From Candidatus Gastranaerophilales bacterium (GTDB lineage: Bacteria > Cyanobacteriota > Vampirovibrionia > Gastranaerophilales > Gastranaerophilaceae): a stretch of 49,902 nucleotides of DNA. A model generated the notes under the pieces. That model was not told where the DNA came from and ran no database searches. It saw only the letters and a program-made list of their open reading frames with translations. This document shows, one piece after another, positions 3,158 through 9,428 of the stretch. The stretch lies in NCBI GenBank assembly GCA_944322895.1, contig CALUQL010000006.1, positions 1 through 49,902 on the forward strand, in the 5' to 3' direction. Every line of letters starts with the position of its first letter. Within the stretch, counting starts at the first letter, position 1. A program made the translations under genes and the position numbers.

Positions 3158-4912
3158 CTATTGTTTTTGTTTTAAAACTTCCACACCTGAAGATTCAATA
3201 TTTGGTGTATCGATTTCAAATAAATGAATACGACCAGAACCCAAATCAACGTTTAATCTTCCGTCTGCTGCTTGAAGGGTTGAATTTTCACCATATGACT
3301 TAAATAAATTATTTAGCTTTTGCGTTTCTTTTAATCCTGGAATAATAATACTTCCGCCTTGTCTAGCATTAACATCTCTATTAGCAACAACTAAAAGCGT
3401 TTTACCATTCAGATGACGTGCAAATGCAATAATTTGATCATTATCATTTCCCATTACATCTAAAGGAATAAATGAACCTTTAGTTAATACATCATGATAT
3501 TTCTTATCATTTCTAACATCTAATGTATTTTTCATGAAATCACCGCATTCCGGATAATCACCAATTAACGGTCTTGAATAATTAAATATATCCGGTTTAC
3601 TTTTATGAACAGTACATTCGTTAGAATCTGTTTCGGTTTGTTCATCCGTAGTACCTTCAAAATCATACATATAATAATCACCTGATTGATATCCATCAAA
3701 ATAATATGGATTCAACATAGGAAGTGTTGCTTGTAAACCAGAAACTAAATTAGTAAATGTAACTCCGCCATGATTCATAATCGATATATCATCATGCGTT
3801 CCGAATGAACCGATTAAAGATTTACCAGGCTCAAGTTCCTGCGACATATTTATATTTTCTCTTACATAATTAAATAAATCTTGTGCATTTGTCCATTCAT
3901 GGAAAATATGATATTGACCATAGTAACTGTCAAAACCAGCTCTTAATGAATCTTGAGGCCTATCATAATTCATATTCAATTGTGGAGAAGCATCTTCGTA
4001 TGTATAACTTTCAGCAAGCCAAGCAAACTCAGGATCAAGCTTACGTGAATAATCTGTTAAAATATGCCAAAATTCAGTTGGTTTCGTTCTGGCTACATCG
4101 CTTCTAACACCATCAACACCCCAATTTCTAATACATTTATCAACAAATTTAATATGATAATCCAATAACTCTTTATTTAATTCACGTTTAGATTCATCTT
4201 TCCAAGGATTAAACATTCTAATATCATTCCAACCACCAGGAGTTTTTGGAGTGCCATCTTTTTCAAATGCCATTAACTCAGGTCTTTCCAAAAATAAATC
4301 ATAAGAAGCACAACTTGGAAGGTCAAGCATTACACTAATACCACGCTTATGACATTCATCAGTAAAATATTTAAATTGTTCATCAGGTGTTCTCGGATCA
4401 TTAGGATCAACAATAGCTGGATCCACCTTCAATAAATCAGCAGGCGCATAAACTGAACCGGCTGTACCAAAGGCATTCTTTTTACCTGGAGGATTTATTG
4501 GTAATACGTGTAAAGTATTAATACCTAATTCTTTCAATTCATCAAGTCTGTCAACAGCATTAATGAAATTACCACGTACATCACCTTCTCTTATTAGTTC
4601 ATTGCCAACATTATTTTTAGCACCCAATGAACGGATAATAACGCCCATTATAGTAGCTTCATTATTTTGGAACTTTGTTCTTAAATTATTTTTATAACCT
4701 TGAACATTGTTAGAATTATTTACAGCATTTACTTGTGTTGCGCCTACTATACCTTGATTTTGTAGATAACGTTCTAACACATTTGTCCCCATAGGCTGAA
4801 CTGCTGAAGGCTGATTATTATTAGGTAACATAACAGCTGTAGGTTCGGGCATTTTCTGAACCACGGTCATTGTTGGAGTTAAATTAAGATACTTATCTAA
4901 ATAATTAGCCAT
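3158..4912 (-). CDS. GH13 alpha-amylase-family enzyme, GlgE-like, with long disordered N-terminus
   Basis: A 584-residue protein with a GH13 (beta/alpha)8 barrel from about residue 85 to 400 and a beta-rich C-terminal domain. The catalytic triad is present: nucleophile D272 (GVRSDVAR), acid/base E301 (WLAESYT) and D374 (FGTHDD). The TKPTEFW stretch after the nucleophile resembles the TKPxxFW segment of GlgE maltosyltransferases. Region I is unusual: D197 is kept (MLDLPS) but the usual Asn-His pair is absent. There is no signal peptide. Residues 1-85 are Asn/Gln/Pro-rich and contain two similar copies of an NxL-(D/E)-(K/R)-YL motif (3-9 and 44-50). It overlaps the upstream membrane-protein gene by 8 bp. 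A cytoplasmic alpha-glucan enzyme is likely; the exact substrate is unknown. Confidence 0.82.
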   Translation of the reverse strand: MANYLDKYLNLTPTMTVVQKMPEPTAVMLPNNNQPSAVQPMGTNVLERYLQNQGIVGATQVNAVNNSNNVQGYKNNLRTKFQNNEATIMGVIIRSLGAKNNVGNELIREGDVRGNFINAVDRLDELKELGINTLHVLPINPPGKKNAFGTAGSVYAPADLLKVDPAIVDPNDPRTPDEQFKYFTDECHKRGISVMLDLPSCASYDLFLERPELMAFEKDGTPKTPGGWNDIRMFNPWKDESKRELNKELLDYHIKFVDKCIRNWGVDGVRSDVARTKPTEFWHILTDYSRKLDPEFAWLAESYTYEDASPQLNMNYDRPQDSLRAGFDSYYGQYHIFHEWTNAQDLFNYVRENINMSQELEPGKSLIGSFGTHDDISIMNHGGVTFTNLVSGLQATLPMLNPYYFDGYQSGDYYMYDFEGTTDEQTETDSNECTVHKSKPDIFNYSRPLIGDYPECGDFMKNTLDVRNDKKYHDVLTKGSFIPLDVMGNDNDQIIAFARHLNGKTLLVVANRDVNARQGGSIIIPGLKETQKLNNLFKSYGENSTLQAADGRLNVDLGSGRIHLFEIDTPNIESSGVEVLKQKQ

Positions 4913-7241
4913 TTACTTTACTTTCTTTTTCAACTTGTTTTTCTGTCTTACCCTTACGCCCAATTGCCAAACCAGCAAGTAATGTAACTGCAGTTAAAGC
5001 AACCATGGCTCCGCCAAATATCTTTAGCCATTTTTGTGAATTATATGTCTGTTTCGCAACATCTTCAATTAAAGTTCTAATTGGCTTTCCGGCTAAGTTA
5101 TTTCTTTCAACAGCATTTGCAGCATTTGTTACACCATCAACAGTACGTCTTGATAGTTCTGTAGTCATACCATTTTGCCAATTTGCAACTTTACTCATGA
5201 ATTCTTTTCTATAAGAATTAAAGCCTTTCATTACATCATCAACCTTATCTGCTCCAAGTGTTCTTGAAAGACTTTCAGCAATTGTTGTATCTGCTTCACT
5301 ATCAAATAAAGCTTTCATCACTGTTTTATATTCTATTTCAGATAAGTTAAATCCTGCAGTTTTAAGTTTTTCAACATAATCTGTAGTTGTCGCATTTAAT
5401 ACAAGATCTTGGCACGCTTTTACCATTCTTTGAAGAGTTTCTTTATCAGCCAAAATACCTTCTGTTTTAAGCATTGATGCCAATTGACTTTCCAAACTGC
5501 CATTTTTAGCTTTTCTAAATACATCAAGAGACTGTAATAATCTATAGAACGAAGATTGAGCTCCTGAAATTCTTTCAGCTGTATTTACATTAATAACATT
5601 TTCAACGGTTCCCTTCTTTACAGTTGAAGAGATTTTTTCAGCTAATTTAACAAAACCGTTCGTTTTCAAACCATTACTTGCAGTAGTACATACAGACTTA
5701 GCTTTATTTTGAACATTTGAAACAAAATTAGCATCAGTTGTATTTTCATAATCTCCAATTAACTTCATTAATTGTTTGATTACTTTATCAAATTCCGCAT
5801 CATTTGATGCCAAAGCTGAAAGTTTATCAAATATAATATCTACATTACCTTTGGAAACAGCCTTTAATTCTTGCCCATTAAGTTTTAGAGCTTTTATTAA
5901 TTTATCACCAACTCTTCCCCATTGGTTAGCGATATAAGTTCCGGCTTGATCTCCGACTCTTGCATTTATATACCTATCAAGAACTCTTTTACCTGAAGCA
6001 AAATCAAGCATATTTGCATGTAAAGCTTTAATTTGATTTGATATCTGAGACAAAGTAGGTGTCTCAGCTGACATTTTAGCTTTTCCTAAAATTTGAGATA
6101 ATTCTCTCGACAATTTTATTTGTTCTTTTTTAGAACCACCTGCTGCCTTAGATAATATCTCTGCAATATTTGCAAATGATTTATTATTTATTGCTTTATT
6201 TAATAAAGATTTTTGTTGTTCGGTTAATGAAGCAAAAACAGAATCATCAATTTTACCCTTTAATGCATTACGTATAAATGATTCATCTATTTTTACGTTA
6301 TTTTTCAAAGCAGCCAATTCATCTTTTATCGCTGTTTGTACTAATGCTGAATTTGCTTTTCCACCAAGTTTTGAAGCTAATTCGGATATAGCTTTATCAT
6401 CCATCACTTTATCAGCATTTTTAGCAAGATAATTATCAAATCTTCTTAAAGATACAAATTCTCTAAATCTATCTGATAAACTTTGATAATTACCATTTTG
6501 GATTGCTTTTTCTGATGAAACCATTTCAAATTTTTCAATGGCCTTTCCAATCGGCTTTTCTAATCTGTTACACAAAAGCGCACTCATTAATGGAGAAGCA
6601 AGACCTGCAGTCATCATCCATAAAGTATTACCTTGAAGAGCAGTTTTTTGTGCTCTTTGTTTTATAAAATTATCCCTATCAGGTATATTTTTACTTACAC
6701 CTAATTTGTCACCAATTCTGTCCAAATCTTCTCTTGAATACAAATCAGTTAAAACATATTGAGGATCTTGGAATAACATTTTTTTACGGCCTTGAGAATC
6801 AACATATTTTTGATGTATATCAACACCTGTTCTTGCTTTTAAAGGAGCTTGTATTGCTAACTTTGGCCATAAAGACATTGAGGCAAAGAAGGTTCCAAAA
6901 CCGACAAATTCCATTGCCTTACTCAATTTTAAAGGATTTTTAACAAATAAATAAGAAGCTAAAGCTAAAGAACCTAATTTCATAGCTAAATCATTAATTC
7001 TACCCAGTTCATGGTCATTAGCCTTACCTTTTGCAGCTTTTCCTATACTTACAATATCTTTCTTCAAATCCTTTGCATATTCGACAGGAGAACCAAAAAC
7101 CTTTGAAGGAAGTAATCTACCCTTATCTTTCATTGGTTTTATTTTGCCTTCACTAGTAAAAACAAAGGCAGAATTAGCACTCTGATTTACAGATTTATTA
7201 ATAGGTTGATTTGCAAGTATCGAATTTAAAACGTTTGTCAT
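4905..7241 (-). CDS. Large membrane-anchored protein related to the neighbouring 372-residue protein, function unknown
   Basis: A 778-residue protein with no recognised catalytic motif. Residues 1-60 are a polar Asn/Ser/Lys-rich leader. Residues about 85-240 form a domain with two hydrophobic pairs separated by conserved basic text (APLKARTGVDI at 132-142, REDLDRIGDKLGV at 170-182). A long Lys/Ala-rich helical region follows (about 240-735), then one C-terminal transmembrane helix (about 741-761) and a charged tail. The same plan, with matching motifs, is seen in the gene at 7243-8361, so the two are likely paralogues. It starts one base after that gene stops and overlaps the GH13 gene by 8 bp, which implies translational coupling. 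Confidence 0.75.
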   Translation of the reverse strand: MTNVLNSILANQPINKSVNQSANSAFVFTSEGKIKPMKDKGRLLPSKVFGSPVEYAKDLKKDIVSIGKAAKGKANDHELGRINDLAMKLGSLALASYLFVKNPLKLSKAMEFVGFGTFFASMSLWPKLAIQAPLKARTGVDIHQKYVDSQGRKKMLFQDPQYVLTDLYSREDLDRIGDKLGVSKNIPDRDNFIKQRAQKTALQGNTLWMMTAGLASPLMSALLCNRLEKPIGKAIEKFEMVSSEKAIQNGNYQSLSDRFREFVSLRRFDNYLAKNADKVMDDKAISELASKLGGKANSALVQTAIKDELAALKNNVKIDESFIRNALKGKIDDSVFASLTEQQKSLLNKAINNKSFANIAEILSKAAGGSKKEQIKLSRELSQILGKAKMSAETPTLSQISNQIKALHANMLDFASGKRVLDRYINARVGDQAGTYIANQWGRVGDKLIKALKLNGQELKAVSKGNVDIIFDKLSALASNDAEFDKVIKQLMKLIGDYENTTDANFVSNVQNKAKSVCTTASNGLKTNGFVKLAEKISSTVKKGTVENVINVNTAERISGAQSSFYRLLQSLDVFRKAKNGSLESQLASMLKTEGILADKETLQRMVKACQDLVLNATTTDYVEKLKTAGFNLSEIEYKTVMKALFDSEADTTIAESLSRTLGADKVDDVMKGFNSYRKEFMSKVANWQNGMTTELSRRTVDGVTNAANAVERNNLAGKPIRTLIEDVAKQTYNSQKWLKIFGGAMVALTAVTLLAGLAIGRKGKTEKQVEKESKVNG

Positions 7242-7242
7242 C

Positions 7243-8361
7243 CTAACATACTACCTTTTCTTTACTTTCATCAATTAAAGATGATGATGCTTGAGAGTCA
7301 GCCCCTCTACTTTTATTAAAGTCTAAAAGTGTTGATAAATTGCCTAATAAAGTCATACCAACAGCCAAACCAAGTAGGCTACGACCGGCTATTTTCACGC
7401 TTTTATTCTTATTATTAACAAACTCTTTACAACTATTAATAAATCGTTTGCCAAAATCTTTTGCAAAATTATCATATTTTGCAATATTTTTACCTTCTTG
7501 TTTTGCTACTTCAGCTATTTTCTTATAATTTTGATAATTAGCAATTCTTTTTGCAGGATTAACTACAAAATTTTCCCACGGCTTTTGCATTGCAACGCCA
7601 ACACCTATTGCTGCCCAGAAGTATGAGCTCAATGTAGAGAACAATTTAGTTTTAATAACTTTTTCCTTTATTAATGGTTTTACTTTTTGATCAGCATGGT
7701 CTAAATCTTCATCCTTTATGCCCATTTTCTTTCCGACATTTTTATAGTAACTGTTTCTGTCAGGTCCAAAACTCTTATTATTATAGAATAAGTCCCAACG
7801 AGGAAAATCTACACTCTCATATGCTTTATGATATTCATGTGTAAGCAAATTATCAGTGTTATCCCCATCCGGAAGTTCATGAATTGCTTTCTTATACGGC
7901 AGATTAACGTCTATACCATATTTCAGATTAACAGGTGTTTCAATCATTTTTTTTGAAAGAGTTTTACCAATACCATAGAACAGAACACCTAATCCCATCT
8001 TCTTGCCAAGCTTTGAAGCATTGACAGCAGCTGGAGTATCAAAAAACTTACTTGCCAAGTTAAAAACAGCAATCATCATTGCACTACCTGTCAAATAAGG
8101 AACCATTCCCATAGTCAAAAATTCGTAGAAATTAGAATTTTTACTACCTTTCAAACCTTTTTGCGGATATTCAGTAAAAGCTTTTACAAATTTATCAGCC
8201 TGAATTTTTAAATTAGTAGTTATCGGATGTTTTCTTTTCTCATCGTACATTAAAACATCTTTATTTTCACACTCGCTTCTCTTTGTCTCTTCTTGCTTCC
8301 CAAACGACAAAGAGTTTGAACCTCTAGTATTTCTAATTTGAACCCCTACTATATTGACCAT
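7243..8361 (-). CDS. Multi-pass membrane protein, paralogue of the 778-residue neighbour
   Basis: A 372-residue protein of unknown function. Hydrophobic segments lie near residues 82-105, 121-138, 241-258 and 325-347. Between them are TPVNLKYGIDV (142-152) and RNSYYKNVGKKMGI (202-215), which align with APLKARTGVDI and REDLDRIGDKLGV in the downstream 778-residue protein. The polar N-terminus contains SLSFGK. It is the first gene of the four-gene minus-strand operon. A GAGGA site sits 5 nt before its ATG, and an imperfect palindrome lies just upstream (about 8371-8386). No homology to a characterised transporter is evident to me. Confidence 0.75.
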   Translation of the reverse strand: MVNIVGVQIRNTRGSNSLSFGKQEETKRSECENKDVLMYDEKRKHPITTNLKIQADKFVKAFTEYPQKGLKGSKNSNFYEFLTMGMVPYLTGSAMMIAVFNLASKFFDTPAAVNASKLGKKMGLGVLFYGIGKTLSKKMIETPVNLKYGIDVNLPYKKAIHELPDGDNTDNLLTHEYHKAYESVDFPRWDLFYNNKSFGPDRNSYYKNVGKKMGIKDEDLDHADQKVKPLIKEKVIKTKLFSTLSSYFWAAIGVGVAMQKPWENFVVNPAKRIANYQNYKKIAEVAKQEGKNIAKYDNFAKDFGKRFINSCKEFVNNKNKSVKIAGRSLLGLAVGMTLLGNLSTLLDFNKSRGADSQASSSLIDESKEKVVC

Positions 8362-8617: not shown

Positions 8618-8890
8618 ATGTACGAAGACGAAAAGCTTATTTGCGAAGATTGCGGAAGTGAATTTGTGTTTACTGCAGGTGAACAAGAATTTTACGCAGC
8701 AAGAGGACTTGTTAACAAGCCAAAGCGTTGTCCTGAATGCAGAAAAAACAGAAGACAAAAAAATAGAAAGAAGTTATACGAAGTAACTTGTTCTAGATGT
8801 GGATGTCAAACAAAAGTTCCATTTAGACCAATCGAAGGAAAAGAAGTATATTGTAAAGATTGCTATAGCACAATTAAAGATGCTCAATAA
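8618..8890 (+). CDS. Double zinc-ribbon protein (zf-trcl-like)
   Basis: A 90-residue protein with two four-cysteine zinc sites. The first is C9/C12 plus C38/C41 around a central FVFTAGEQEFYAARG segment, which matches the probable zinc-ribbon family zf-trcl. The second is C58/C61 plus C79/C82 with a Lys/Arg-rich linker between the two. The basic linker suggests nucleic-acid binding. The ATG has a clear AAGGAG site. It stands alone and is closed by a strong hairpin terminator at 8908-8935. Proteins of this type are common and small, and their role is mostly unknown. Confidence 0.85.
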   Translation: MYEDEKLICEDCGSEFVFTAGEQEFYAARGLVNKPKRCPECRKNRRQKNRKKLYEVTCSRCGCQTKVPFRPIEGKEVYCKDCYSTIKDAQ

Positions 8891-8907: not shown

Positions 8908-8935
8908 AAAAGAGATGCTTTTCAGCATCTCTTTT
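8908..8935. terminator. Bidirectional intrinsic terminator
   Basis: A 9-bp stem (8911-8919 with 8924-8932), extended by A/T pairs, with a TTTC loop and a T-run. It follows the zinc-ribbon gene and can also end the minus-strand 78-residue gene. Confidence 0.85.
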
Positions 8936-9010: not shown

Positions 9011-9247
9011 TTATGCTATAGCAGAAAAGGAACAGCCACTGCTTCCGCAAGAAGAATATCCACCAGAAAAACTATTTGCAACACTACCTGCAGTTTCCCC
9101 ACCCTGATTTGAGAATCTTGATTTAGCTGCTGTTGAACCGAAAGCAATACTACCTGCTGTTTCTCCACCCTTAGACGAAGAAAATAAAGAAACGTATCCA
9201 AATGTTCTGCTTGAATTCAATAAAGAAATATAATTGCCAGCACCCAT
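9011..9247 (-). CDS. Small Gly/Ser-rich repeat peptide with two C-terminal cysteines
   Basis: A 78-residue protein supported as a real gene by a strong AGGAG site 6-7 nt before its ATG. It has two copies of a GGETAGS(I/V)A repeat (27-35 and 49-57, period 22), each preceded by a Phe-Ser step, and ends with CGSSGC (67-72) followed by SFSAIA. There is no transmembrane segment. The Gly/Ser/Thr-rich content and cysteine tail recall a precursor peptide or a surface/structural peptide. No modifying enzyme or exporter is adjacent, so I assign no function. An overlapping shorter frame (9016-9201) has no such support. Confidence 0.6.
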   Translation of the reverse strand: MGAGNYISLLNSSRTFGYVSLFSSSKGGETAGSIAFGSTAAKSRFSNQGGETAGSVANSFSGGYSSCGSSGCSFSAIA

Positions 9248-9428
9248 TTCAAATCTCCTAATATCTTGATAGTGTTTACATATATATAAAAACTTTTTTT
9301 AATACCTAAAATCAGAGAAAGATCTTTTTGTTACATTTCTTAATTATACTCTTAAATCACTATGATATTTATGTTTTTTCAAGTTAGTTATGGTTTAATT
9401 ATTCTATAAAAAGATAATCGGAGTAGTT

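Follow-up and report, generated by a model that had tools for sequence, protein, structure and literature searches.

The order Gastranaerophilales comprises non-photosynthetic relatives of cyanobacteria. The DNA analysed here (the window, a stretch of 49,902 nucleotides) comes from a member of this order whose genome assembly amounts to 2.15 Mb in 159 contigs, and it carries at positions 9011-9247 a short, repetitive open reading frame (ORF). The locus raises two questions: whether this frame is a gene and, if so, what a small protein of this kind may do.

The gene and its immediate surroundings

The ORF lies on the minus strand, with its ATG at 9247-9245 and its stop codon at 9013-9011, exactly where a preliminary description of this DNA had placed it, and is translated into MGAGNYISLLNSSRTFGYVSLFSSSKGGETAGSIAFGSTAAKSRFSNQGGETAGSVANSFSGGYSSCGSSGCSFSAIA, 78 residues followed by the stop; the plus-strand frame across the same positions contains several stops. 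A Shine-Dalgarno (SD) sequence, AGGAG, is located at 9255-9259 (minus strand), 7 nt 5′ of the ATG. Two near-identical repeats with a period of 22 residues are recognised from the translation, the alignment and shuffles, namely GGETAGSIA at residues 27-35 (9143-9169, minus strand) and GGETAGSVA at residues 49-57 (9077-9103, minus strand); the best 9-mer match of the repeats is 8 of 9, which was equalled by 1 of 2000 residue shuffles. Both the SD sequence and the repeats had been named in the preliminary description, and both are borne out. The same description took CGSSGC for the end of the protein, but six further residues, SFSAIA, come after that stretch, and it is these that are conserved; the last eight residues, GCSFSAIA (residues 71-78, at 9014-9037, minus strand), follow the C-terminal pattern of the relatives considered below.

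The length of the ORF is by itself just mildly surprising, since 24 of 2000 shuffled versions of the intergenic region (538 bp) also contain an ATG-initiated ORF of at least 78 residues, and this speaks for reading it as a chance open frame. That reading is refuted by conservation and has a virtually nil probability: homologues occur in many genera, the gene as a whole is under purifying selection (dN/dS 0.10-0.39 in 11 pairs from the genus), and the SD sequence and a conserved upstream element also oppose it. The lack of frame conservation that the preliminary description had put forward as evidence against a gene was not found, since the reading frame is kept in relatives and synonymous changes are favoured. 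Judged by its homologues in the genus and by these substitution ratios, the ORF is a real gene, here called the TAG gene after its motif; a protein 87% identical to its product is encoded by the Candidatus Gastranaerophilales MAG CALUUJ010000005.1.

About 76 nt past the stop codon, a hairpin resembling an intrinsic terminator (8908-8935, minus strand; one found where 0.5 were expected) is followed by T residues and separates the TAG gene from a convergent plus-strand gene at 8618-8890, whose 90-residue product carries zf_Tbcl and zf_Tbcl_2/TIGR04272 zinc domains. Farther along, the minus strand at 3158-8361 holds a row of three genes encoding proteins of 584 residues (weakly alpha-amylase-like), 778 residues and 372 residues, the latter two without a family; this row looks like an undescribed operon, as its order is kept in eight loci examined from the genus and in one locus (L092) from another genus.

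An undescribed family with a conserved motif and tail

No match to the window protein was found in Pfam, NCBIfam, PHROGs or PADLOC, and two relatives (L039 and L050) gave just sub-threshold matches in searches of known families. Two of these, both for L039, were rejected as chance: NF058583, a LAXTG-motif small protein (E 0.13; 12 bits, cut-off 65), and PF21937, a YscD/CdsD-like domain (E 0.0057; 16.8 bits, cut-off 27, over 14 residues). A profile built from alignment A1, which comprises 22 sequences including that of the window and was assembled after the frames had been read, found no PDB sequence at E ≤1 and no relative on viral contigs, and the one Rfam match fell far below its cut-off. 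Full-text literature searches with the motif strings returned no description of the family, nor is it named among the matches listed for the Gastranaerophilales/Melainabacteria literature on promoters, type III secretion, small proteins and RiPPs. The TAG-motif proteins are thus, as far as sequence comparison goes, an undescribed family without a match among database families, in agreement with the earlier view of the window protein as a compact, repetitive small protein lacking a known counterpart.

Counts of family features refer to 69 distinct proteins with at least two strict motifs, single-motif members lying outside these counts. Members are 52-145 residues long (median 76), and the motif has the consensus E[TS]AG[ST][VIL]A, which is present twice in 46 members, three times in 8, four times in 1, five times in 3, six times in 3, seven times in 7 and eight times in 1. 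Position 1 is E in 205 of the 210 motifs; the invariance of G at position 4 and A at position 7 over the 69 members is circular, because the search expression requires both. In alignment A1 (22 rows, from the genus) the invariant residues are A31 and G32 of the first motif region and E51, T52, A53, G54, S55 and A57 of the second. Motifs start 8-50 residues apart, most commonly 10, 11, 21 or 22, and spacers and N-termini vary, the latter differing from genus to genus. Inside the motifs dN/dS is 0-0.18, against 0.13-0.55 outside (11 pairs, one of which, G036-G022, shows no difference). Across 40 genomes of the genus a coding pattern for a single motif gave 44 matches, 42 of them within the TAG gene and the other two both in one genome (G032), while the reversed control gave none.

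The C-terminus mostly reads GGSF[SC]A[IVM]A, a pattern found in 49 of the 69 members and in none of 716 neighbouring proteins, with the proviso that it was drawn from the members themselves; some members end in FVC, SYSC or similar, and L106 has no such tail. The last residue is Ala in 54 members and Cys in 9, mostly after I, V or M. Cysteines number none in 12 members, one in 27, two in 18, three in 9, four in 1 and five in 2, so that neither a conserved disulfide nor the two-cysteine tail once taken as a defining feature is retained. An N-terminal pattern present in 21 of the 69 members and in 30 of 630 genes of the background was likewise discounted, having been drawn from the members.

Members are rich in Ser (19%), Ala (14%) and Gly (14%), contain no Trp, and have N-termini that are Ser/Asn-rich and poor in charge. 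A 15-residue stretch with a mean hydropathy above 1.5 occurs in two members (L106 and L018), the median maximum being 0.84; the other 67 have no Sec-like hydrophobic stretch, in which they differ from Sec-exported surface proteins or adhesins. The protein of L106 (6324-6761, plus strand), from another genus, has 145 residues with two TAG motifs and a hydrophobic, membrane-like segment, and a start resembling its own (MNNVSFMGGESAGSIA) is present in L118 at 8119. AlphaFold gave the window protein a mean pLDDT of 38.9 and no confident fold, which is weak evidence for disorder because the alignment held just two close sequences.

Distribution of the family

Members were found in the genus of the window, in other genera and in one other family of the order. 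Used as a query, the window protein gave matches at E ≤1 in 25 of the 41 genus genomes; three of these matches (L022, L025 and L026) are chance frames and were left out of alignment A1, and a fourth (L024) is a diverged member kept in the family but outside the alignment. Next to the zinc-finger gene, at the conserved position, 23 of 30 genus loci have a TAG ORF and 7 have none, so the gene is dispensable; the loci linked to the zinc-finger gene add members in four genomes (G020, G025, G034 and G037), giving 27 of 41 genus genomes in all.

At the level of the family Gastranaerophilaceae, matches to profile A1 at E ≤0.1 came from 69 of the 191 genomes, which belong to 22 of 41 genera; the 25 new loci read among these matches (L030-L054) all have the motif, and the weaker matches are mostly unread. 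A DNA pattern of two motifs 6-36 nt apart was found in 25 of 286 genomes and 11 of 50 genera of the order (reversed pattern, none), including one genome (G229) from another family. In the phylum the same pattern occurred in 16 of 386 genomes, all from the window's own family (reversed control, twice in one genome), and none of the phylum genomes drawn from outside the order had it; it undercounts, since the window gene itself is missed owing to its long spacer. As far as genomes were sampled, the TAG family is confined to the order Gastranaerophilales.

A conserved element upstream of the gene

Comparison of upstream regions set side by side revealed three boxes before the TAG gene, TTAAGAAATGTAACAAAA, TGAAATT and GTTTTTATATAnATGTA, whose mutual distances are fixed to about one base and whose consensus (TnAAgAA(a/t)TGTAACaAAA, TGAAATT and GTTTTTATATAnATGTAag) ends tens of bases before the start codon. 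In the window the whole element spans 9275-9347 (minus strand, as are the boxes), with box A, TTAAGAAATGTAACAAAA, at 9326-9343; box B, here TGATTTT and -35-like, at 9308-9314; and box C, GTTTTTATATATATG, which is -10-like, at 9279-9293. Box A is a partial dyad, the fullest form of which is TGTTA-N7-TAACA, as in L021. A box score of at least 3 was reached by 61 of the 69 members and by 6 of 660 neighbouring genes, and the full score by 55 members and 2 neighbouring genes, one of which is the L118 gene with the L106-like start.

Two sequence-only models were made from these regions. The first, R1, was built from 45 of 61 upstream elements, that of the window included, and scores the window gene at 49 bits (E 1.1e-12), a training sequence in this case, with the next sites in the same genome at 23.1, 22.6 and 19.0 bits (E 1.3e-4, 1.9e-4 and 2.6e-3). 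The second, R2, was built from 23 sequences of other genera, the window's genus being held out, and recovered the window element at 35.3 bits (E 3.1e-9). In the held-out genus, where the test took in 21 of the 27 members, R2 found 21 of 21 TAG loci at 30.6-45.4 bits (E ≤9.1e-8 over 318,881 bases), with no match at any of the 7 genus places that lack a TAG gene; a 9.4-bit match lies elsewhere in one of those loci (L132). Eight of the 69 members fail the box test, of which one (L005) is found by R2 and two (L107 and L110) by R1. The other five (L033, L035, L071, L094 and L122) belong to one genus (g22), lack the three-box element and have other upstream sequence; most of them have in common a string close to TTTTGTGGAATATA. 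The element is probably a promoter with an upstream activator-like site, and its model can be used by anyone to seek further genes under the same regulation.

Gene neighbours and the possibility of a modified peptide

Neighbouring genes were clustered for 35 loci, the nearest genes were read in 21, and 18 neighbours were run against Pfam. The neighbourhoods differ between genera: the commonest neighbour, the convergent zf_Tbcl gene, flanks the TAG gene at 14 of the 35 loci and remains in 7 genus loci that have no TAG gene, and the other side differs in g1, g6/g20/g34 and g33, so that a single conserved gene neighbourhood was dropped.

These observations bear on the proposal, made in the preliminary description, that the protein serves as precursor to a ribosomally synthesised and modified peptide (RiPP), here with several core repeats. 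Graspetides are ester-linked peptides in which Glu is involved with Thr or Ser, and each TAG motif likewise pairs Glu with Thr/Ser; multi-core precursors such as those of graspetides and cyanobactins, as generally pictured, are also small, and their conserved cores recur and contain both hydroxyl and acidic residues. The short length, the strong SD sequence and the near-identical tandem cores of some members point the same way. Unlike such precursors, the TAG protein has no conserved leader beside a variable core, for its N-termini vary across genera and conservation is concentrated in the repeats and the C-terminus. Neither among the nearest genes of the 21 loci nor among the 18 neighbours compared with Pfam was a peptide-modifying enzyme recognised. 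An MNIO subfamily of RiPPs reaching Cyanobacteriota has precursors with a C-terminal CPxCGxG, according to PMC12636315, and this ending is absent from the TAG members read.

The preliminary description had also suggested looking for radical SAM and peptidase genes. Co-occurrence of maturation enzymes was followed for SPASM-type radical SAM proteins (TIGR04085) only. SPASM proteins are present in 24 of 40 genus genomes and show no association with the gene, since they occur in 16 of the 24 TAG carriers and in 8 of the 16 non-carriers (p 0.34), and eight carriers have none. Peptidase genes do adjoin the TAG gene in some genera, with a U32 peptidase upstream on the same strand in L115 (the same cluster in L116) and a trypsin-like peptidase on the opposite strand in L099 (the same cluster in L100 and L113). 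Given this balance, a RiPP precursor has little support and is quite improbable.

Possible export through a flagellum-type apparatus

According to two reports (PMC3787301 and PMC4040986), gut members of the lineage have partial flagellar gene sets. In the family, 190 of 191 genomes, that of the window among them, encode FHIPEP (FlhA/SctV, PF00771) with a score above the cut-off, and among the matches listed two score classes can be distinguished, one at about 820-885 bits and the other at about 724-736 bits. In one genome (G045) the gene of the second class adjoins genes for a type III secretion system (T3SS)-type ATPase, FliH and YscJ/FliF. A compact row of export genes (ATPase, FHIPEP, FliH, an uncharacterised protein and YscJ/FliF) was observed in three genomes of two genera, at L194:8387-15635, L196:7892-15260 and L199:7367-14513, the assignment being by Pfam for L194 and by likeness of length and sequence ends for the other two.

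It could be supposed from the near-universal gate, and from the setting in G045, that the TAG protein leaves the cell without a Sec signal via such an apparatus and acts outside as a surface or host-directed ligand with several motifs. The known substrates of flagellum-type export (flagellin, FliD and FlgM, as generally understood) are similar in having no Sec-like stretch and a Ser/Asn-rich N-terminus, features that the TAG members have in common with them. The TAG protein differs in having no flagellar domain, and one flagellin gene (L093) and one FliD gene (L123), both confirmed by Pfam, lack the upstream element, so that co-regulation with flagellin and FliD was dropped. A search of the export loci for the element gave no strong match, a partial match of 20.6 bits in L196 lying between other genes; of the element-linked proteins, those in which a domain was recognised are of the ribbon-helix-helix kind, plus a LysM protein; and FHIPEP is also encoded by genomes in which no TAG gene was matched. 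Export by this route is possible but unsupported, and the whole reading, ligand included, is an unlikely one. A more far-reaching version, in which an order-wide motif-repeat family with its own promoter would be exported by an apparatus kept after loss of the flagellum and would serve as the main multivalent ligand facing the surface or the host, is a long shot; if export did take place, it would give a purpose to genes that have been reported as incomplete flagella.

A proposed multivalent display of a short motif

The most likely reading of these sequences, held tentatively and at somewhat less than an even chance, is that the TAG protein is a small, disordered, multivalent display of a short binding motif under its own promoter. 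Two copies of E[TS]AG[ST][VIL]A, or up to eight in relatives, would be presented on freely varying spacers rich in Ser, Gly and Asn, with the hydrophobic-Ala C-terminus conserved beside the motif array. Each motif would act as a docking peptide for the same partner, the protein as a whole being a multivalent ligand or scaffold, and motif copy number would then set avidity because every motif docks the same partner. The amount of protein may be set by the dedicated promoter, in which boxes C and B would be the paired -10 and -35 sites for one sigma factor, with the partial dyad of box A as an activator site. A short conserved motif on fast-changing linkers, as seen in alignment A1, in the substitution ratios and in the counts over 69 members, is one feature of a multivalent protein with short linear motifs (SLiMs). 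CsoS2-type scaffolds, disordered proteins with multivalent SLiMs as usually described, similarly combine a repeated short motif with variable linkers and a separate conserved C-terminal peptide; the TAG protein differs in having neither a PDB sequence match nor a known partner or organelle. It counts against the display that the motif hardly occurs elsewhere in the genus, which leaves no other setting for watching it dock, and so does the absence of the gene from 7 of 30 genus loci. The motif is short enough for direct use as bait for the partner.

The near-regular 10-residue spacing in L039 and L044 counts against the disordered display, in that it would also fit a repeat fold, whereas spacings of 8-50 residues over the family speak against one fixed solenoid. 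Together with the low-complexity Ser/Gly/Ala composition, the same regular repeats could indicate a self-assembling structural peptide of an amyloid- or silk-like kind. This is distinctly improbable, as 46 of 69 members have just two motifs, the spacings vary as stated, 67 members have no Sec-like stretch, and the strict E-T-A-G-S identity would seem to exceed what assembly needs. The Gly/Ser/Thr-rich repeats with TAG or GGx strings also recall RTX nonapeptide and ice-nucleation repeats, from which the TAG protein differs in having neither GGxGxDxUx nor a fixed period; in PMC3787301, gut members of the lineage are reported to be without type I secretion genes.

The tail suggests a further alternative, in which the protein is a short-lived regulator and its C-terminus a degradation signal like that added by ssrA. 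The preponderance of final Ala or Cys after I, V or M fits this, and the tmRNA of a relative (L105:2824-3215, plus strand) encodes the tag ANNVVKADFSRAQALAA. The tails of members do not end in LAA, however, and such a signal would account for the tail while leaving the motif unexplained, so it is very unlikely. Motif, tail and recognisable upstream element together define, by sequence, an undescribed gene family in a gut-dwelling order for which experimental tools are scarce.

Other genes bearing parts of the element

Other genes, too, have boxes B and C upstream. In the window's own genome and its relatives these encode a 201-residue protein beginning MTVSFQNGSF, a coiled-coil-like family of 172-184 residues beginning MGYALF or MRKLQLTQ, proteins beginning MPNG(I/V)SCA, and small ribbon-helix-helix proteins; none of the element-linked proteins run scored above a family cut-off except the ribbon-helix-helix proteins and the LysM protein. 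The coiled-coil-like family, exemplified by L168:1578-2093 (own genome, C35) and L097:10793-11317 with boxes B and C upstream, is conserved at both ends (M[GV]YA[LI]F..RK at the start, TPK[YF] or APKY at the C-terminus) but variable in between, and had no match above a family cut-off; its identification with a solved type III component was dropped, the best PDB match having E 0.15.

Box C alone is weakly enriched in the window's genome, where 7 sites compare with 4 for its reversed pattern; the corresponding numbers in three relatives from the genus are 8 and 0, 4 and 1, and 10 and 5. In the own genome a full-length element match of 22.6 bits on contig C19 (L164:1501-1572, minus strand) has no clear gene behind it and may precede a small RNA. 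In two genomes of two other families, box C outnumbers the reversed pattern by 35 to 2 (G223) and 13 to 2 (G224), and in G223 (for example L205, L211, L217, L223 and L228) there is perhaps a large set of genes with a promoter-like element of the box C type.
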